Below, piece after piece: positions 4,991 through 45,807 of a DNA stretch of 64,000 nt. The DNA comes from Tetrahymena thermophila SB210 (lineage: Eukaryota; Ciliophora; Oligohymenophorea; Hymenostomatida; Tetrahymenidae): positions 62,001-126,000 of the forward strand of contig NW_002476174.1 of NCBI RefSeq assembly GCF_000189635.1. Reading direction: 5' to 3'. Each line of letters begins with the position of its first letter. The stretch's first letter is position 1. A model generated the notes under the pieces. The model was given only the letters and a program-made list of their open reading frames with translations, made no database searches and had not been told where the DNA came from. The position numbers and the translations under genes were made by a program.

Positions 4991-7042
4991 TCATTTCTTT
5001 TTGTTTTTAGCTTTTTTCTTCTTAATCACGTCTTTTTCAAGAAGTGCTTTAATTTCTGCATCACTTTCAGCTGAAAAAGCAGATTTTAAATTAGCAAGTG
5101 CATTTTCGAGCTTCAATCCGCTCAATAAAATTAATCCTCCTTGATGAATAGCAACAGTCATTTTAAACTATGCTACATATTTTCCAGGCTCTTCAGATTC
5201 AATGGGTAGCTAAGAAATTACTCCTTATTTTTTGAATTCCTATAAAACATTATCGTAAGTAGGATCTTCTGCAAACTGTCTTGCACTGAAGTAGAAGTGA
5301 GAGTGATGTTCAATAATTTTGTCGTAAATCTATTGTGCATTTTTTTTAATACCTACCTATTTCAAATGCTTTTCAGGATGGGCTTAGTAAATATTAGATT
5401 TAGGCAAACCTTCAATATGAATGATGCTACCGGAGCCATTAGAAACTAAGATATTTAAGGTATAAACTTCGTACTATTCAAACCTGTAAGTGAAGAATTC
5501 TCTCTTATTAGAGATATCATCAATACTAGGAATAAAGAATTTAGATTCCATATTATTGTGCTTAATTTCATAGCTTCTCACATCGGAAATTGGATTGCAC
5601 TTATAAATATTAGAAGTTTTTTTGATGATATCTACAGTGTCTGTATTAATTTTTTCAGGATTAAGAGTTCTCAAAGCTGTTTAAAGACTATAGTATGCAG
5701 CATGGATGACGTCAGCTTTGGCGCCATCAACACTTGCACCTTCAGAGCAAACTATGGTTTAGGCAGATTCTGCTAAAAAACCATCTATTTGGACACCTAC
5801 GCTAATTTTAACCAAATCTCCTTTCTTGATTACTAACCATTTCTTGTCATCAGTTGTATTCTTTAATGGAGAGTAGTTAGACACAAGCTCATTTAATGTA
5901 ATTGAAGTAGGATATGCAACACCTTTATTCTTATCTTTGGTAAAAACTTTCTTGACTTCAGCTTCCACAAGCTCATCTCCAAATTAGCATAATTCTGAAA
6001 TAACTGCATTTGCTTTAACCTTTTTAATAAGCTCTTCAACTACTAAATCTGAAATTATACCAGCTGCTTTGTACTTATCGAGGACACCATTTGCAAGAAC
6101 GCTATCCTTTTCAGGTTCAGCATCTGGGGCAACTATATTACGCTTAATCTTTACAAGAATAACACTCATATTGTCACAGCCAAGACCTTAAGTAGTGTCT
6201 TTAGCTATGATCTAATCGAGCAAATCTTCAACAATCTTAGTTAAAGGAACATACTCAACTAAACCCTTGCGGCAAATAGTTACTAATTCTTGGTTAGTTT
6301 TTAATTCCCAAATGCCATCACAACCAATCAGAAGGAATTCATCTTTTGGAGTTATTTCATGAATTACAACGTCAGGCATAGGACTGATGAGCTACTCTTC
6401 AGGCTTTATGTCTTTGTTTGACTTGTAATTTAAATCACCTAAGGCACGAGATAGATTTAAATTACCATTAACTCTACCATTTGTAACGCTACCACCAGCT
6501 TTTTTAATTCTATCTAATTCTAATTCATCTTCTGGTTTATGGTCTTTACTGAGATCGAGATTTTTACCTTCAACACTTAAAACACAACGTGAATCACCAG
6601 CATTAGCTACATATATTTAGTTTTTGTAAAGTAAAGTAACGTTAGCTGTGCAACCTGCGGTATTTTAAACCTAAGTTTGTTCTGGAGAACGTGTTTTAAC
6701 AATTTTGAGCAAATCTTCTCTACCTTCTTCTGTGAGAAGCAATTCATCCATTTTTAAGAAAGTTTCCTTTAAGGCAGTAGGAAAATCTTTAGATTTATAG
6801 GCAGCATTTTCTTTAAGTTCCCTACCAAAATGCTTTGCTACAAAAAGTGCAACTTCAAATCCACCATGTCCATCAAAGACTGCATAGAGTTAAGTGTCAA
6901 CATCAAATTTAGGATCACAAATATGAGCATCTTCCATATTTGTACGCCATCCTTACATGCAACTCATAGCAAATTCAACTGAGCCAAAAGAACCGCTTTC
7001 TGTTTCTTTAGTTGTAACAGGTTTACTGAGATACGTTCCCAT
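4991..7042 (-). CDS. PP2C protein phosphatase fused to an EBP1/PA2G4-like domain
   Basis: A single exon of 684 codons gives 683 aa. Residues about 20-300 are a complete PP2C serine/threonine phosphatase: [40 protein letters not shown] and the closing [10 protein letters not shown] are all present, carrying the usual metal-binding Asp residues. With no stop, intron or gap, the frame continues from about residue 320 into a full-length EBP1/PA2G4-type pita-bread fold: [57 protein letters not shown], and a Lys-rich tail after DAEIKALL as in animal EBP1. Compared with true methionine aminopeptidases the first metal-binding Asp of K-I-D is Ser and the second is not Asp, so this half is probably a non-catalytic binding module, as in EBP1. 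EBP1 proteins bind ribosomes and RNA and link growth to translation; a built-in phosphatase would be a new arrangement. MGTY is the first in-frame Met and fits a short PP2C N-terminus. Confidence 0.92.
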
Positions 7043-7892: not shown

Positions 7893-8393
7893 ATGAATGC
7901 CACATCATATTCAAATAAAAGCGGATAAGGAGGATTTGGAAGGAAATCGTAAATAAAAGAGTATCAGAACATGGATAATATAGGTTATACTTCTGGAACG
8001 CTCTCAGTAGCTAACGGAACTTAGTAGCTTGGTCAAAATCCAGCAAGTTTGAAAGGAAAATTATAAAATTTAGAAGAAACAACAAAAGCAGTTTCAGATG
8101 AATTAAGCATGCACAAAAAAGAGTTATAAATTTTGAAAAGTGAAAAGGATACTTTGCAACAAGTTTTAAAAGTAAAGACAGATGATGTATAAAATACCCT
8201 GACCAACGAATTAAAGCGCCTTGAAGATGAAATGAGACGACACTTTAATCATTAAAAGGCTGAAACTCATCGTATCTAAACATAAATTAACACATTAAAA
8301 GCTGAAAAAACTTCTTTGGCTCAAACTCTAAATGGCCTTGAGCATAGAATATAAGACTTAGAAATGAATGTAGGAAATCATGAACATTTTTGA
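7893..8393 (+). CDS. Small coiled-coil protein, 166 aa
   Basis: A single exon from ATG 7893 to TGA 8391-8393. The first 50 residues are Gly/Ser/Asn/Gln-rich and probably disordered. From about residue 55 to the end the sequence is one continuous heptad-type helix, for example LEETTKAVSDELSMHKKEL, then ELKRLEDEMRRHFNHQKAE, with no prolines. The pattern and size resemble short axonemal or basal-body coiled-coil proteins, but I cannot name a family. It is divergent from the phosphatase fusion gene with 850 bases between them. GC content rises clearly above the flanks, which supports a real gene. The high Gln content is partly encoded by TAA/TAG. Confidence 0.8.
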
Positions 8394-33400: not shown

Positions 33401-36198
33401 ATGATAATGAACATTAAGTTCTTATAGCAAATCCCTCAATTAGCTCTTTAAACAAAGGAGAAGGTCAAATCAAAAATTGATCAATTAAAGAAAGAAGATT
33501 CAAAGTATTTAACTAGCAGCAATATGAGTCGTGATTAGATCATCAAAGGGCTTGAATCTAAAAATTCTTAAAAAGTGTTAGATTCATTAAAAAGGTTATT
33601 AGCCGTAACTAAAATAATTTATTTCTAATTCATAAAAAATAGATATAAATTTCAATTAATATTAAAATAATATGTTTAATATATTTTTTATAAAAAGCTA
33701 TCCATCTTAGGGAAAAGCATTAGCAAGTATGTGAATAAGGTTATTCTACTTTTAGCTAATCCAGACATAGAAATTAAGCGTATTATTTACATTTTATTGA
33801 CAGAAATCAGTTATGAAAATCCAAACTGTGATGAACTTCTTATGTGTATCAGCCCACTTTTGAAATAAATAGCTAGCAATATTCCTTCTGTAATAAAAGG
33901 AGATACATTAAAAACTCTTTGCTCTTTAACTATCCAAGAAATGAAGCCAATGCTAATTAAAACTCTCTAAAAATTACATGTTGATAAAAGTCCATATGTC
34001 AAAAAAATATCAGCACTAACTCTTATACAATTCTTTTTAAGCAAAGATATTGAAGAAGAAGAAGTTGATGCTCTTTATAGTTTTCTTTTGAAAGATGTAC
34101 CTTTCTTAAAAGGATGTGTTTTGCACTTATCAAGACAAGTAAGTTTTTTTATAATGAATCAATTTATCAGCAATCCAATTTTAAAATGCAGCAAAAATAA
34201 CTAAATTTTGTATTATTATATTAGCTTTAGACTTAAGGAGATAATTTAGAGTTTTTACATTATCATTTTAGAAGAGTATGCAAAGAAATTCATACGTATA
34301 CTGTTTATGATATTGTACTTAATCTTTAAATGATAAATAAGTATGCTTTAATGTATTTGCAATATGAATAATAAGTCTAGTTAGAGCAACAAGCATAAGC
34401 ATAAGCAGCGGCTGTTGAAGAAAATAAGAAATAAAAACTATCATCAATTAAAAAGATCCATCCAGACCTTTAACTTTTATACAATGTTTGCACTCGCTTA
34501 TTATATTCTTCATATCCCTCTGTCATACTAGAAGTAGCTCACATAGCTATAGATTTTCCTTAACCCGAGCTCTTAAGTAAGGTAAGTTATCATCTTTGAG
34601 TAATAAATGTTATAATAATATTTTGGTATTTAATAAAATTAAAACATTAGGTAGCAAAAGCTCTTTTGAGATTTGTAAATATAAATTCAGACTCAAAACT
34701 TATAATTTTGTAAGCAATAGAATATTTTAGTATTAAGTATCCTTAATACTTCAAAAATAGTTTTAGAACTCTTTTTGTCACTTAGCTTGAGAAAGTGTAA
34801 TTTAAATATTTCAAAAACATATATTTTGTTTGAAGTGAATATTAATTTTTCCTTGTAAAATACAAGATATTGCAAAGTCAAAAAAATTGAAATTTTATAT
34901 CATATCGTAGATGATTTAAATGTTGGACATATTTTAGATGAGCTAAACTATTAAATTAGATCTCCTTCCTTCGATGTAAGCATAGCTGCTATTAATTGTA
35001 TTAAAAAGATTGCAATTAAGCAAAATAAATTCTTTGGAAAATGCATTAAATCTCTTACTAGCTTGTTGAAAACAGCTAATTAGTAGCTCATAGAAGTTTT
35101 AGTTAAAGCACTTAGCGAGCTCATTTAACAAGTAAAATGATTGAAATTTATCACAAGCAATTAATATTATTTTAAAACTAGAATATAAATGTATACTATC
35201 CTATTCTTTCATATACCTTTGAATACTACTAACAAATTAATAATCCACTCATTAAAGAAAGAGTTATAATTTAGATTTCTCAGTTCTGCTAAGAAATTCC
35301 ATCGATTTGTTTAGACTACTACAGAATTCTTTTACAAAGCTATACTAAAGAGCACGATATTGTTAAACTTTAAGTAAAGAGCACTTTAAACTACATTTTA
35401 ATAAAATAGATTTTATTTTTAAAAGATAGGTAATTTAGGATTTAAGCTTTTGTGTATATTTGACTAAAATCATGAGCTCTTTTAGAAGCTTGTTGAATTT
35501 TTCAAATATAACTTGAACCTTGGAATTAATGATAGATCTTTCAAAGTAAGAGACAGAATGAGATTTATTAAAGCAATTACAATTGGTAATGAAGTATCAG
35601 ATATTAGCTCTTATGAAGCATAAAAATTGAAAGAGAATTTAAATAAAATACACACTTAAAAATTAGTCGATTTATCAACAAATCACGTTTCTGAACTATT
35701 TAATAGCAATGAGGGGTAAATATAACAAATATCAACAGAAAATCAACTAGAATACCTAGGTGAATAATAAGCTCGTTCTTTTGGTTTACTAACAAATGAA
35801 GGATTCAGAATTGGCACAATATCATCAATTGTATATTTATTTTTTTCTTAGTAAAAAGTTAATATATTTTAATATGTTAATAGCTAAAAATAAGATACGA
35901 AGGATATTCTAACTTTGAAATATATTCTACATAAATAGCAAAGGAGTCAACAGATTAGAGGAGAAGTGAAGCAGAAACTTAGGAAAAGCTATAAAAAGAA
36001 CAGTAGATTTAAGAAAAGCTGTAAAAATAAAAAGAAATTGCAGAAGCATAGGCTGAAGAAGAAAAAGTTGTATCATAAGTTAAACCTAATCCAGAAGCCA
36101 AGTAGAATCAAATTAAAAAATAAGTTTAAAGCGATTTATTAAATCACTATCAGGACAGTCTCAAAAAAACTCTTAGCGATTTTTTCGAAGACGATTGA
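33401..36198 (+). CDS. AP-3 complex beta subunit (trunk only)
   Basis: Eight exons: 33401-33604, 33698-34138, 34225-34581, 34651-34796, 34867-35131, 35182-35373, 35447-35830, 35884-36198; 767 aa. Beta adaptins form half of the AP heterotetramer that sorts membrane cargo; AP-3 serves lysosome-related organelles. The Adaptin_N solenoid spans about residues 20-640: QIIKGLESKNSQKVLDSLKR, NPDIEIKRIIYILL, DKSPYVKKISALTLIQFF, SYPSVILEVAHIAIDF, KVKKIEILYHIVDDLNV, and KYNLNLGINDRSFKVRDRMRF, which closely matches the AP-3 beta word YDxNYDIRDRxRF. Human AP3B continues for over 300 residues with an acidic hinge and ear; here the trunk ends in a short Q/E/K helix and LSDFFEDD. The splice at 35374 was chosen because the intron-free reading hits TGA and the spliced version restores family spacing. 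AP-3 rather than AP-1/2/4 is my best reading. Confidence 0.82.
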
Positions 36199-44679: not shown

Positions 44680-45807
44680 AAAAGACCAATAATTAATAAC
44701 TTTGTATGGACGTAAAAAGTATATAAAATATAATAAATTTATATATATACCTTCAATTAAAAAAAATATAAATGATCAAACAAATATAATTTAATTTATA
44801 TAAAAAACATTGACTCAAGTAAATTATTGATTATAAACATAAATATTAAATTGCTAATTATTAAAAATATATAAGGTTGACTGAGTTAGTTAATTAGTTA
44901 GTGGATAATATTTAAAGTTATTAGACTTTTCTAAAAAAGAAATTTCATAAATGTTTATTTATTTTATAAATTTATATTAATCTATTAACTTCAATAATAT
45001 TTAAAATTATGAGACTTTTCTAATTCACAATTTTAAAAAATAAATATTTATTTTTTTAAAAAAGTTTAATTATTTCAATAATTTATTATTAATATTTTCA
45101 TATTGATATCTATAAATTAATAATTATTTTTAAAAATTAATATAAAATAAAACTAATTTTTTAAGTAGAATACTAAGATATTTAAATAAATAATTGAGAT
45201 AAAATGTTTCATTTAAGGAATTACAAATAATAAAAATAATCTTAAATTTATTTTTCAATTAAATTTGCAAGCCTAATATAAATATTTTTGAAAAGCATTA
45301 CAAAAACTATAAAAAATGCATATAGGGTATTTCCTTTGAATTTATGTAATATAAAAATAAATAATCTTTATTGTTTTGAATGGAATTATTTTGAAGTTTA
45401 AAATTTTTAATTATTTTTACAATTTTATTAATTTAAAAATATTTATTAAAATTTTTAATGATTTATTTAATCTATTTTTAAAATATGTTTTTCTTAATGT
45501 GAAAAAAAAAAAAATTTATTAATTTAACTTTTTTCAATCACACATAATTACATGATGATAAACTATTTTAGTCTAAGAGTAAAAATATCTAAAAATAAAT
45601 AAATAAATTATTTATTTAAAATTTTTGAAAAGAAGCAGTTGAATCCAAAACATTTTTTTAAATTTTATTTTAGATTAACTTGAATTAAAAATTTATAATA
45701 AAAAATGTTAAAATAATTTATTGAGTGAAACTTAATCATAAATTTAAAATCAATCATAAAGAATAGGAATATTATTCACTAATTTGAATTTATTTTAACA
45801 GTTTTTT
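44680..45807. other. AT-rich spacer (1.1 kb)
   Basis: 5' flank of the Q/N/S-rich gene and 3' flank of the giant membrane protein gene. Long A/T runs only. Confidence 0.5.

Follow-up and report, generated by a model that had tools for sequence, protein, structure and literature searches.

In animals, EBP1 and PPM1G are encoded by separate genes. PPM1G, a PPM phosphatase (PP2C-gamma) described as carrying a long acidic region, dephosphorylates eIF4E in human cells and has been tied to growth and translation (PMC11306785), as has EBP1/PA2G4 (PMC7005732). The latter study describes EBP1 as catalytically inactive. Human EBP1 docks on uL23/H59 through R243, L257, K258, R263, and R271, of which L257 and K258 act by their main chain, and it contacts ES27L through a Lys loop and a polybasic tail (PMC7005732). 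Deletion of ES27L, the landing site of EBP1, is lethal in Tetrahymena thermophila (PMC7005732). The polybasic tail also acts as a nucleolar signal, and K20 and K22 serve nuclear entry (PMC4941749).

A locus of T. thermophila joins these two families in a single gene. The window, i.e., the whole stretch of DNA analyzed, comprises 64,000 nucleotides (C318:62001-126000), and the genome searched comprises 101 Mb in 445 contigs. A telomerase (TERT) fragment encoded in this genome agrees with PDB chain 2r4g at 101 of 102 residues, and with 6d6v about equally well, both being T. thermophila chains. The features of the locus are as follows (all on the minus strand):

4991..7042, minus strand: fused PP2C-EBP1 gene, 683 codons in the ciliate code, intron-less, TGA stop
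6140..7042, minus strand: PPM1G-like PP2C half, residues 1-301, with Pfam PP2C at 23-284
6092..6139, minus strand: linker, residues 302-317, pLDDT <50
4994..6124, minus strand: residues 307-683, the EBP1/PA2G4-like half, with a MetAP2-like pita-bread fold that lacks the MetAP metal site
5210..5404, minus strand: region corresponding to the insert domain of human EBP1 (242-305), fused residues ~547-611, borders approximate
4994..5029, minus strand: C-terminal polybasic tail [11 protein letters not shown], corresponding to the Lys cluster in human EBP1

Two families in one reading frame

The window encodes a genuine two-domain protein. Profile matches place both families in the one open frame: the N-terminal half scores 232 bits with Pfam PP2C (cut-off 20.3), and the EBP1 half scores 256.2 bits with TIGR00495, below the cut-off of 430.05. 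The predicted model of the protein matches both the PP2C fold and the PA2G4 fold, joined by a low-confidence linker. The structural claims of the sequence-only reading are borne out, namely that two full-length halves share a frame with neither intron nor restart at the junction.

Two neighboring genes, or an assembly join, might have been misread as one frame, and the frame does contain an in-frame Met at codon 292. This is very improbable: only about 16 residues separate the domains, the junction is coding-like with no AT-rich gap, and neither half has a second genomic copy at comparable identity, as a mis-join of known loci would need. The next PP2C match in the genome reaches 50% over its full length (best partial matches 54-55%) and the next EBP1 match 29-47%. 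The gene, with a GC3 of 0.22-0.26, is therefore regarded as real, an unusual architecture assembled from two familiar families.

The unfused pair on contig C57

Besides the fused gene, a genome search with the EBP1 model returned a single further EBP1, on contig C57 (four exon matches), together with two weak C255 matches. When the whole fused protein was used, PP2C exons were found on the same C57 strand just upstream of this EBP1. The pair was modeled by the analyst as follows:

C57 15045-13031, same strand as C57 EBP1: PP2C, five exons, four introns, 357 aa, own TGA
C57 10988-8321, same strand as C57 PP2C: EBP1, six exons, five introns, 370 aa

In these exon models, all nine introns are GT-AG. 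The EBP1 lies 2042 nt downstream of the PP2C, and the gap has 15-25% GC; its longest code-6 frames, of 360 and 240 aa, look like low-complexity chance frames. The pair thus has the families, order, and strand of the fused gene but differs from it in having separate genes with their own starts and stops, nine introns, and a canonical EBP1.

T. thermophila has about 26,000 genes. With that number, the chance of finding one of four PPM1G-like genes directly upstream of EBP1 and on its strand is about 1 in 10,000, an after-the-fact estimate, and a connection of the fused gene with the C57 pair is therefore likely.

The C57 EBP1 scores 430.4 bits, just over the TIGR00495 cut-off, and matches vertebrate EBP1s at up to 335 bits. 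Strong codon bias is linked to high expression, and the codon usage of this gene (GC3 0.52, AAG:AAA 39:5) looks like that of a highly expressed one. Given such a canonical, strongly codon-biased EBP1 on C57, the fused copy is probably not the main EBP1 of the cell; the fused protein looks like a specialized offshoot.

The phosphatase half and its paralogues

The fused phosphatase shares with PPM1G/PP2C-gamma type enzymes the catalytic core, the N-terminal MGxYLSxP, the metal motifs, and the predicted fold, and differs from them in the EBP1 domain attached behind it. Residues R33, E37, D38, D57, G58, D242, and D290, which we take to be the metal-binding and catalytic positions, are all present. 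With these motifs intact and the fold predicted, the enzyme is apparently active. The long acidic region of PPM1G (PMC11306785) is absent: 40-residue windows (step 10) along the fused protein contained none with 14 or more Asp+Glu, which sets it apart from the PPM1G subfamily. A search for the eIF4E-binding pattern YxxxxL[hydrophobic] found none in the PP2C half and a single match, at 527, in the EBP1 half.

The genome searches revealed four unfused PPM1G-like genes, on C57, C279, C127, and C13. The fused PP2C is 53.5% identical to that of C57 and 49.3-50.2% to the other three. In the best tree the fused and C57 sequences are sisters (support 68/79); alternatives placing the fused PP2C with C279 and C127 (p-AU 0.159), with C13 (0.214), or outside all four paralogues (0.139) are unrejected. 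The C279 and C127 genes (C279:379048-379920 and C127:493163-494032; 62.8% mutual identity) are likewise intron-less PPM1G-like genes, so that intron loss among them happened more than once or is shared.

The nearest solved structure is 2i0o from Anopheles gambiae, to which the fused PP2C is 46.7% identical, the highest among the five, versus 40.4-41.6% for the other four. Relative-rate tests with 2i0o likewise showed more of its states kept by the fused sequence than by each of the four paralogues (35/16, 43/18, 42/16, and 35/19; p = 0.011, 0.0019, 0.0009, and 0.040). With PPM1A as outgroup, in contrast, no difference was seen (22/23, 22/16, 25/20, and 19/20), and a slowly evolving PP2C half is therefore suggested, no more.

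The EBP1 half: fold and erosion

The fused half has in common with EBP1/PA2G4 proteins, and with the yeast-type Arx1, a MetAP2-like fold without the metal site, the Lys loop, and the polybasic tail. It differs in falling below the EBP1 model cut-off, in its eroded insert, and in the phosphatase at its N terminus. The predicted structure shows the PA2G4-type pita-bread fold with insert and is mostly confident, although the alignment behind the model contained relatives. In the tree, the fused half groups with EBP1s against archaeal MetAPs (100/100; the program warns of a long branch). The best tree places it outside C57 plus vertebrates (47/11), and the pairing of the fused and C57 sequences is unrejected (p-AU 0.299).

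Relative to the archaeal MetAP consensus, KISVGVQ, AESAQT, VRSYEI, and EQYEVY stand at the metal-motif positions, and the aminopeptidase metal site is absent. The sequence-only reading had singled out this loss of metal-binding Asp residues (KIS for KID). The loss is seen but is not special to the fused half: human and C57 EBP1 are themselves missing some of the ligands of that consensus, and the lost KID is therefore uninformative and no novelty in an inactive family.

More telling is where the fused half has diverged from human EBP1. Of 369 positions, 168 are identical to the human protein in C57 EBP1 and 120 in the fused half. The following Fisher tests are uncorrected for multiple testing, and the border of the insert was set by the analyst with the alignment in view (start at the named R243, length about 60). 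In the insert (human 242-305), identity is 30/64 (47%) for C57 versus 13/64 (20%) for the fused half (p = 0.0025), and outside it 138/305 versus 107/305 (p = 0.013). The fused insert differs from the rest of the fused half (p = 0.027); the same comparison within C57 EBP1 gives p = 0.89. Of the residues that human and C57 EBP1 have in common, the fused half keeps 8 of 30 in the insert versus 76 of 138 elsewhere (p = 0.008). The docking residues tell the same story, with one kept in the fused half (K258) and four in C57 EBP1, although the named contacts are as few as five (PMC7005732).

Other parts have fared differently. Identity to human EBP1 in the C-terminal part is 25/68 for the fused half versus 24/68 for C57, in the ES27L loop 5/11 versus 4/11, and in helix 1 1/3 versus 0/3. 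The last 20 residues hold 10 Lys in the fused protein, 8 in human EBP1 (cut at residue 373), and 6 in C57. Human K22 corresponds to K325 in the fused protein and to Q21 in C57 EBP1. With loop, helix 1, and C-terminal part matching the human protein about as often as in C57, erosion of the fused half appears to be focused on the tunnel-exit insert and to spare the RNA-touching parts.

This pattern bears on the switch for growth or translation that the sequence-only reading had proposed, in which the EBP1 half would still attach to mature ribosomes at the tunnel exit/ES27L, with the phosphatase acting there. The predicted EBP1 fold speaks for that proposal, as do the ES27L-contacting Lys loop and polybasic tail, neither of them less well preserved than in C57, and the action of PPM1G on eIF4E (PMC11306785). 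However, the insert that gives most of the docking on the exit ring is the most eroded part, and a canonical EBP1 is present on C57, so that the switch is improbable.

The EBP1 half might instead be a largely passive or decaying appendage of a phosphatase that alone matters. The EBP1 half has evolved fast (tree branch 1.55 versus 0.42 for C57), and among 355 positions the human state is kept by C57 only at 84 and by the fused half only at 30; the PP2C half, moreover, is the most animal-like of the five with 2i0o, though not with the PPM1A yardstick. Such decay is nevertheless doubtful: the 377 codons stay open and in frame, the predicted fold is mostly confident even allowing for the relatives in its alignment, and the fused half is hydrophobic at 102 of the 120 positions that are hydrophobic in both human and C57 EBP1 versus 24 of the 181 that are polar in both.

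Origin of the fusion

The fused gene has none of the nine introns of the C57 pair and holds the two families in the parental order. Judged from protein breaks, the C13 paralogue shares three of the four intron sites of the C57 PP2C; the introns therefore look like the older state, and the intron-less fused gene like the derived one. A wider segmental duplication was sought by comparing 926 frames (window plus 9.6 kb, ~73.5 kb) with 502 frames from 36.5 kb of C57 (frames of at least 50 residues, E 1e-5, low-complexity filter on); in the 6 rows of matches, only PP2C and EBP1 appeared.

The fused gene most simply arose from such a PP2C>EBP1 pair, perhaps through a retroposed read-through transcript. 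A comparable case is known from hominoids. The parent genes of the chimaeric retrogene PIPSL are two neighbors. PIPSL is explained by read-through of the two, followed by retrotransposition (PMC6764479). The proposed route is the same as for the fused PP2C-EBP1 gene, which differs in being much more diverged and in that its RNA route is only inferred. At about 50% protein divergence, a poly(A) tract or target-site duplication is expected to have been lost. Tetrahymena retrogenes were sought in the literature as well, and none appeared by title and abstract among the matches listed.

The joint sits beyond [15 protein letters not shown], near the EBP1 start; it corresponds to a point inside the last PP2C exon of C57 and, on the EBP1 side, to the first EBP1 exon, and does not fall on C57 exon borders. 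The lack of introns agrees with an RNA route, which with this exact joint also demands a deletion or an unusual splice. The position of the joint would also suit fusion of a tandem duplicate at the DNA level, by deletion with separate intron loss, or the splitting of an older fused gene to give the C57 pair, and several arrangements of the trees are unrejected. Both, although compatible with any functional reading, are less likely than not by some distance: nine introns are absent, no other shared flanking frame was found, and, since animals have EBP1 and PPM1G as separate genes, a fused ancestor calls for additional steps. By whichever route, the two loci clearly illustrate a gene fusion whose copies have diverged unevenly.

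A proposed function

The EBP1 half, which retains the fold, Lys loop, and tail alongside an eroded docking insert, is more readily read as a module that targets an apparently active phosphatase than as a tunnel-exit switch. The whole explanation, to which a probability of about 0.5 is given and in which we infer the route of origin, catalytic activity, localization, and substrates, combines an active PPM1G-type phosphatase and a diverged EBP1 of fusion origin, the latter serving for targeting. The protein consists of an apparently active Mg2+/Mn2+ phosphatase, a short flexible linker, and the diverged EBP1, and its gene is a dispersed, intron-less relative of the unfused, intron-bearing C57 pair. 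Such a pair would have fused, probably through an RNA copy, when a read-through transcript was reverse transcribed. The two loci would then have diverged after duplication, C57 retaining the canonical EBP1 and the fused EBP1 half changing much faster, with fold, Lys-rich loop, and basic tail retained and the uL23 tunnel-exit docking insert eroded. The EBP1 half would most likely bring the phosphatase to sites that are RNA-rich or nucleolar/pre-ribosomal, and there the enzyme may dephosphorylate growth or ribosome-assembly substrates. By analogy with PPM1G, which acts on eIF4E, growth and translation factors are plausible targets.

Occurrence and wider meaning

Among the literature matches listed, searches for the pairing or its parts gave no description of a PP2C-EBP1 fusion, and to that extent the novelty claimed for the architecture stands, although both domains may already appear in automatic database annotation of the gene. 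Literature naming both genes likewise gave no PPM1G-EBP1 link in titles or abstract openings, among the matches listed. In a viral contig collection, not meant for ciliate genomes, 599 pattern stretches contained no EBP1 relatives or fusion. A genome contig collection, again not meant for ciliates, gave at least 580 pattern stretches and at least 56 EBP1 relatives, all archaeal or bacterial by title and, among the matches listed, at most 34% identical (best segment); these are taken as MetAP-type.

A broader idea, speculative and on balance doubtful, is that eukaryotes at large use a PPM1G-type phosphatase together with EBP1 on the ribosome or on ribosome precursors. In that case both the fusion and the C57 pair would be traces of one old partnership, one locus having kept the phosphatase with a nucleolar or RNA-targeting EBP1 and the other a canonical ribosome-bound EBP1. 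If so, Tetrahymena would have hard-wired a general cooperation. A protein fusion predicts that its two halves cooperate elsewhere. T. thermophila serves as a genetic model, and loss of ES27L is lethal to it, so this prediction is directly testable.

Other features were seen in the window. A 166-aa frame at 7893-8393 (plus strand), coiled-coil-like by eye and with only sub-cut-off Pfam matches, stands head to head with the fused gene. A 310-aa frame at 33401-34333 (plus strand) matches Adaptin_N at 51.8 bits (cut-off 37), and an 89-nt tandem repeat of 1.9 copies with 75% matches lies at 44905-45074.
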